Source: Flammeovirga pectinis
GTDB taxonomy: Bacteria > Bacteroidota > Bacteroidia > Cytophagales > Flammeovirgaceae
DNA: 64,000 nt
Assembly: GCF_003970675.1 (NCBI RefSeq)
Contig: NZ_CP034562.1
Coordinates: 3,038,001 to 3,102,000, forward strand
Direction of reading: 5' to 3'
Shown here: positions 53,655 through 53,905 of the stretch, in pieces
Layout of the letters: each line of letters opens with the position of its first letter
How positions within the stretch are numbered: position 1 is the first letter of the stretch
Position numbers and translations under genes: made by a program
Notes under the pieces: model-generated
The model's database searches: none
Seen by the model: only the letters and a program-made list of their open reading frames with translations
What the model was told of the DNA's origin: nothing

Positions 53655-53677
53655 AATAAAAAAAGCCATGCAATGCA
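53655..53677 (-). terminator. Second terminator-like hairpin downstream of ncRNA
   Basis: Minus-strand GCGATGCATTGCATGGC folds into a short hairpin (one G-G mismatch) followed by seven Ts. It backs up the U-run that ends the candidate RNA. Confidence 0.5.
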
Positions 53678-53689
53678 TCGCTTTAAAAT

Positions 53690-53869
53690 AAAAAAGGGTC
53701 GGTTGGAATTTCTCCATTTATAACAGGTTTAGGCTTCCCGATTATATGTCGACCTTCCACTGTTAACATTCAAAAGAATGACTTTACCAAAATAAAGTTG
53801 AGGCCTGCTCTTCAAAAATCAGTACACCTTATATGAGTTCACGTTGAAAAATCCAAATGTTACCGACCC
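53690..53869 (-). ncRNA. Candidate structured non-coding RNA (possibly 6S-like)
   Basis: On the minus strand GGGTCGGT (53869-53862) pairs perfectly with ACCGACCC (53703-53696), closing a 174-nt span, directly followed by six Ts (53695-53690). A second stretch (TTTGGA with TCCAA) continues the helix with bulges. Internal hairpins include CATTC/GAATG and ACTTTA/TAAAGT. A promoter ends 6 bases before the 5' G. No coding frame fits. Length and end-to-end pairing recall 6S RNA, but I cannot confirm the family. A nadC leader is an alternative. Confidence 0.6.
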
Positions 53870-53874
53870 ATGTA

Positions 53875-53905
53875 CAAATGTCATCAAAAACAGTTAAAAA
53901 CACAA
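53875..53905 (-). promoter_or_regulatory. Promoter of the candidate ncRNA
   Basis: Minus strand TTG (53905-53903), 20-base spacer, GACATTTG (53882-53875; one mismatch to TAnnTTTG). The expected start coincides with the first G of the closing helix at 53869. Confidence 0.5.

Follow-up and report, generated by a model that had tools for sequence, protein, structure and literature searches.

Many bacteria use 6S RNA to restrain their own RNA polymerase. The housekeeping sigma factor and promoter of Bacteroidota are atypical, which makes the 6S RNAs of this phylum a natural test of mimicry following the promoter. E. coli 6S RNA makes its key contacts through two regions, one −10-like in the 3′ central bubble and the other −35-like in the apical arm; synthesis of the pRNA opens helix P2 downstream and frees the polymerase (PMC8876501). 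Within Bacteroidota, dRNA-seq detected a Bacteroides 6S RNA and its pRNAs (PMC7366714). The RNAs found in F. psychrophilum also include 6S, and the Bacteroidota −7 consensus, TAnnTTTG, lies at −12 to −5 of real sigma-A promoters (PMC9723704). The Rfam families closest to the RNA described here are 6S/SsrS (RF00013), 6S-Flavo (RF01685) and Bacteroidales-1 (RF01693, annotated as '6S-Bacteroidales suggested').

We analysed a 64,000-nucleotide stretch of the Flammeovirga pectinis genome (contig NZ_CP034562.1, positions 3,038,001 to 3,102,000), hereafter the window. Its minus strand carries a structured 174-nt RNA closed by an 8-bp end helix. We conclude, mainly from comparative sequence analysis and with a probability of roughly 92%, that this is the 6S RNA (ssrS) of Flammeovirga, encoded by a free-standing, single-copy gene. 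The locus is a real gene missed in annotation and specifies a known kind of RNA. The elements on which the original prediction had been built were all found where it had placed them: the end helix pairs GGGTCGGT with ACCGACCC without a mismatch, TTTTTT follows on the minus strand, the promoter elements GACATTTG and TTG lie upstream, and the number of overlapping open reading frames of at least 60 amino acids is zero. The predicted start at the 5′ G is exact to about 1 nt (G53869 or T53870). In aligned relatives, the −7 box lies 4–5 nt ahead of the first G; it reads GA[CT][AC]TTTG in the genus and is the exact consensus TACATTTG in a copy from another genus (L010). The spacing from TTG to the −7 box reads as kept in several Flammeovirga members. 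Judged by its sequence, the promoter is of the sigma-ABfr type. Because a canonical hairpin with a T-run, AAAGCGATGCATTGCATGGCTTT, lies further downstream, the end helix and its six U are not the sole terminator. This second hairpin is nearly palindromic, with an A-run on one side and a T-run on the other, so termination on the plus strand is also possible and the element is probably bidirectional. The gene is predicted to yield a stand-alone transcript within the 160–200 nt looked for in a 6S RNA, with its own promoter and 3′ end (Table 1).

Table 1. Features of the 6S RNA locus (window coordinates).
Feature	Position	Strand	Evidence
6S RNA gene (ssrS homologue), 174 nt	53696–53869	−	Genus conservation, covariation, R1/R2 model matches
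−7 promoter box GACATTTG	53875–53882	−	Sequence; kept in genus and L010
−33 TTG, 20 nt 5′ of −7 box	53903–53905	−	Sequence, genus alignment
P1 closing helix, 5′ strand	53862–53869	−	Covariation
P1 closing helix, 3′ strand	53696–53703	−	Covariation
P2 inner closing stem, 5′ strand (pairs with 53714–53704); predicted downstream part of pRNA template	53846–53855	−	Covariation, unconstrained fold
P2 inner closing stem, 3′ strand	53704–53714	−	Covariation, unconstrained fold
5′ central bubble; predicted pRNA start C53843 (CAAC) or U53841	53830–53845	−	Conserved AAC/CAAC; start by analogy
3′ central bubble, conserved AANC(U/C)UGU	53715–53730	−	Column counts
Candidate −7/−10 mimic UAAACCUG in 3′ bubble	53731–53724	−	Proposed role; location from PMC8876501
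P3, 5′ strand (pairs with 53733–53731), apical side of bubble	53827–53829	−	Covariation
P4, 5′ strand (pairs with 53741–53738)	53819–53822	−	Covariation
Apical stem, CCUC pairing with GUGG 53760–53757	53800–53803	−	Column counts
P5 apical hairpin	53781–53798	−	Covariation, unconstrained fold
P6 second apical hairpin	53767–53780	−	Covariation
U-run directly 3′ of P1	53690–53695	−	Sequence; U-rich across genus
Second terminator hairpin AAAGCGATGCATTGCATGGCTTT and T-run	53662–53684	−	Sequence; kept in genus

The locus is single in its own genome, and the RNA is kept in all nine Flammeovirga genomes at 88–97% identity, with copies of lower identity in two further genera of the family (L010 and L012). 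A covariance model made from 11 sequences (R1) gave matches in 31 of the 241 genomes of the order, spanning six families, with one full-length match in each; the relatives are likewise single-copy once stray second matches, which score close to chance, are set aside. The model searches thus recognise the RNA across Cytophagales. Models R1–R3 gave no credible match in genomes G009, G011 and G013–G017, which represent genera of the same family and include some near-complete assemblies, nor in many other Cytophagales genomes, reflecting loss, divergence or the limits of the search. A more diverged copy was seen in another family of the order (L118, G022 C53:292-475; 47 bits with R3). Beyond Flammeovirga, a scan for the exact core pattern returned chance matches in Treponema, Bradyrhizobium, Rhodoferax and viral contigs, with no credible R2 match there.

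The Rfam search suggested with the original prediction was uninformative for the window RNA itself, which matched no family at or around its locus even at an E-value of 5, but at low threshold it succeeded for two relatives. One (L049) matched RF01693 at 35.2 bits and the other (L043) matched RF01685 at 33.2 bits, in both cases over the full length and exactly at the R1 match, with scores below the family cut-offs of 60 and 85 bits, respectively. Neither the window RNA nor any of 37 relatives gave an RF00013 match, and RF00013 revealed no other 6S RNA in the F. pectinis genome or in 37 relatives. As the window RNA scores for no Rfam family, its membership has to be traced through a chain of intermediates.

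That chain runs through R2, a model built from Cytophagales sequences only. R2 matched all 13 loci that RF01685 or RF01693 had retrieved, at the identical place and on the identical strand, and across the phylum it gave matches in 30 of 395 genomes. Among its matches in family f74 were 11 loci that score 74.3–115.9 bits for RF01685, nine of them above the cut-off. At one locus (G260 C1:875172-875320; L064 and L070), the RF01685 and RF01693 matches coincide; the two families thus overlap and seem to be one. R2 matches in another class coincided with RF00013 matches at 32.7 bits (L097, E-value 0.003) and 25 bits (L084), and R2 also detected L098, which at 47.1 bits exceeds the RF00013 cut-off, along with L105, L113 and L115. 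The model R3 matched all 17 remaining RF00013-derived loci tested; three RF00013-fetched loci had been taken into its training, so these matches are only partly independent. L098 excepted, the individual links to RF00013 are weak. E. coli ssrS gave no R2 match, as expected at such a distance. The reciprocal, in-place matches tie the RNA to the 6S-Flavo, Bacteroidales-1 and RF00013 6S loci, in line with the 6S type that had been surmised, and through this indirect chain they point to sequence–structure homology with accepted 6S RNAs. Since R1, R2 and R3 match at RF01685, RF01693 and RF00013 loci, we read the RNA as the 6S RNA of its lineage, a Bacteroidota form so diverged that Rfam does not recognise it in the window.

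A common signature accompanies these matches: the 5′ bubble has CAAC, the apical arm GCAGGCC and AGUGGAAG, and the 3′ bubble AANCUUGU; the RF00013 consensus carries the matching apical motif GCC...GGAAG. From the alignment of 56 sequences, RF01685, RF01693 and RNAs of RF00013 type from the phylum's other classes would seem to form a single Bacteroidota family. 6S-Flavo resembles the window RNA in its closing stem, in the CAAC of the 5′ bubble and in the 3′-bubble sequence AAACUUGU, and R2 locates its members at their own places. However, the Rfam model covers a 108-nt core only, without the end helix and with one apical hairpin, whereas the apex of the Cytophagales RNA carries two, making it a structural variant among 6S RNAs; the flavobacterial matches are also shorter (about 140–170 nt) and AT-rich. 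Bacteroidales-1 gives full-length, in-register matches in Cytophagales (L049, L051 and L073) and has AAAUCUUGU and GGAGUUU in common with the Cytophagales RNA, although its Rfam model leaves the closing stem unpaired and Cytophagales scores fall below its cut-off. The likeness to 6S/SsrS lies in the rod, the closing stem, the central bubble and the apical arm with GCC...GGAAG; the window RNA differs in having no direct RF00013 score and an apex of two hairpins.

Folded as a single sequence, the RNA retains its end helix and has a minimum free energy of −45.0 against a shuffle mean of −36.7, but the z-score of −2.2 is modest and the case for the structure therefore rests on comparison among relatives. 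In 11 sequences, the 37-pair structure has 96.5% of its cells paired, and 13 of the 37 pairs show double-sided changes, compared with a shuffle mean of 4.0 and with none of 500 shuffles as high. In 56 sequences aligned with R2, and hence fitted to that model, compensatory changes occur in 34 of 35 pairs. The covariation score of 0.68 compares with 0.21 in shuffles and no more than 0.14 when partners are slid. P1 covaries in this alignment at each of its eight pairs, so the closing helix has the covariation among relatives that its original description called for. An unconstrained MAFFT/RNAalifold analysis of 23 Cytophagales sequences returned P2 together with an apical hairpin, and 13 of the 17 pairs carry double changes. 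These comparisons support every helix, the end helix included, through compensatory changes, and argue for the architecture of a 6S RNA, in which a large central bubble lies between a closing stem and an apical arm. The apical CCUC/GUGG stem contains a U–U mismatch in the window RNA, at which some relatives have G–C or C–G. A forked apex of two hairpins is seen in several Cytophagales RNAs (L040, L041, L077, L087, L092 and others) and apparently in some members from another class. RNAalifold also suggested a pseudoknot between ACAG in the apical arm (53763–53760) and CUGU/UUGU in the 3′ bubble (53726–53723). We did not adopt it because variation is one-sided only (G–U to G–C); ACAG itself is invariant, and the possible pairing is broken in some relatives.

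The main alternative named originally, a riboswitch or attenuator acting in cis as the leader of nadC (quinolinate phosphoribosyltransferase), takes its appeal from the window, where the RNA lies upstream of that gene on the same strand. Two terminators separate RNA and gene, however, and linkage to nadC is not kept across genera: the L010 copy is flanked on one side by a PAD_porph deiminase gene and on the other by a divergent pair encoding an ABC-2 permease and a polyprenyl synthetase, and the L012 copy adjoins the same pair. As the neighbouring genes change while the RNA stays, we take it to have its own gene. Flavobacterial and other homologues, moreover, score as Rfam sRNA genes, and we reject a nadC leader as highly improbable. 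The stand-alone ncRNA originally proposed, with its own promoter and terminators, agrees with these neighbourhoods.

With a gene of its own, the RNA could still belong to the 6S-Flavo/Bacteroidales-1 superfamily and yet act otherwise than 6S RNA, for example as a protein-binding or base-pairing sRNA. The 6S status of both families is mainly prediction plus pRNA reads in one species, and the most conserved bases (GCAGGCC and AACAGUGGAAGG) lie in the apical arm rather than in the bubble alone. Against this, R2 matches coincide with RF00013 matches, one of them above the cut-off, the central bubble is flanked by two stems, the GCC...GGAAG apical motif is present in RF00013 itself, and the Bacteroides homologue has pRNAs (PMC7366714). 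We therefore judge a different mode of action unlikely. Less plausible still is an RNA like the actinobacterial Ms1, which binds core RNA polymerase and makes no pRNA: a structural relationship of Ms1 to 6S RNA has been described (PMC9130861), but the homology found here leads to 6S families, and the Bacteroides homologue is reported to have pRNAs (PMC7366714). A 6S RNA remains our reading.

As a 6S RNA, the 174-nt transcript would be made from the sigma-ABfr-type promoter, ended by its own terminators and folded into a rod with P1 and P2 as closing stem, a large central bubble and an apical arm bearing two small hairpins. In this form it would imitate a Bacteroidota promoter in its open DNA complex and, by analogy, bind the housekeeping (sigma-ABfr) holoenzyme and keep it off DNA promoters under nutrient scarcity. 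Once nucleotides return, the polymerase would start on the 5′ bubble strand (CAAC/CAACGU) and copy towards the 5′ end of the RNA, and this pRNA synthesis would open P2 and release the enzyme. We infer polymerase binding, pRNA synthesis and a growth-phase role from known 6S RNAs. Taking the 6S RNAs of E. coli and B. subtilis as a guide, we place the pRNA start opposite C53843 or U53841, which gives a predicted 5′ end of GUUGAAAAAUCC or one two bases longer (alternatives GUUGAAAAAUCC and ACGUUGAAAAAUCC). Refolding with the pRNA-bound stretch blocked gave no clear new release hairpin.

The conserved AANCUUGU in the 3′ bubble occupies the expected place of a −10/−7 mimic. Here, UAAACCUG is a partial match to the −7 consensus TAnnTTTG. 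The A, T and G columns are conserved in 46, 54 and 50 of 56 sequences, respectively, but 49 of 56 have C instead of T at the fifth position. With U53841 as the start, the box falls at −12 to −5, but this start was picked after the sequence had been seen, so the −7 mimic is offered as a hypothesis. That the Bacteroidota 6S RNA has both a forked two-hairpin apex and, within the 3′ bubble, an RNA copy of the −7 box (xAnnCUUG for TAnnTTTG, at −12 to −5 from U53841) is a tentative proposal, which we think somewhat doubtful.

Our claim to novelty is limited to non-detection by Rfam 15 at this locus, and we do not present Cytophagales 6S RNAs as undescribed; the main 6S survey, that of Wehner et al. 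in 2014, is the likeliest to include them. The finding exposes an annotation gap, in which Rfam misses a global transcription regulator in Flammeovirga and in much of Cytophagales, and R3 is a model that could find the remaining Bacteroidota 6S RNAs. If the copy of the −7 box and the forked apex proved true, the RNA mimic would have co-evolved with sigma-ABfr.
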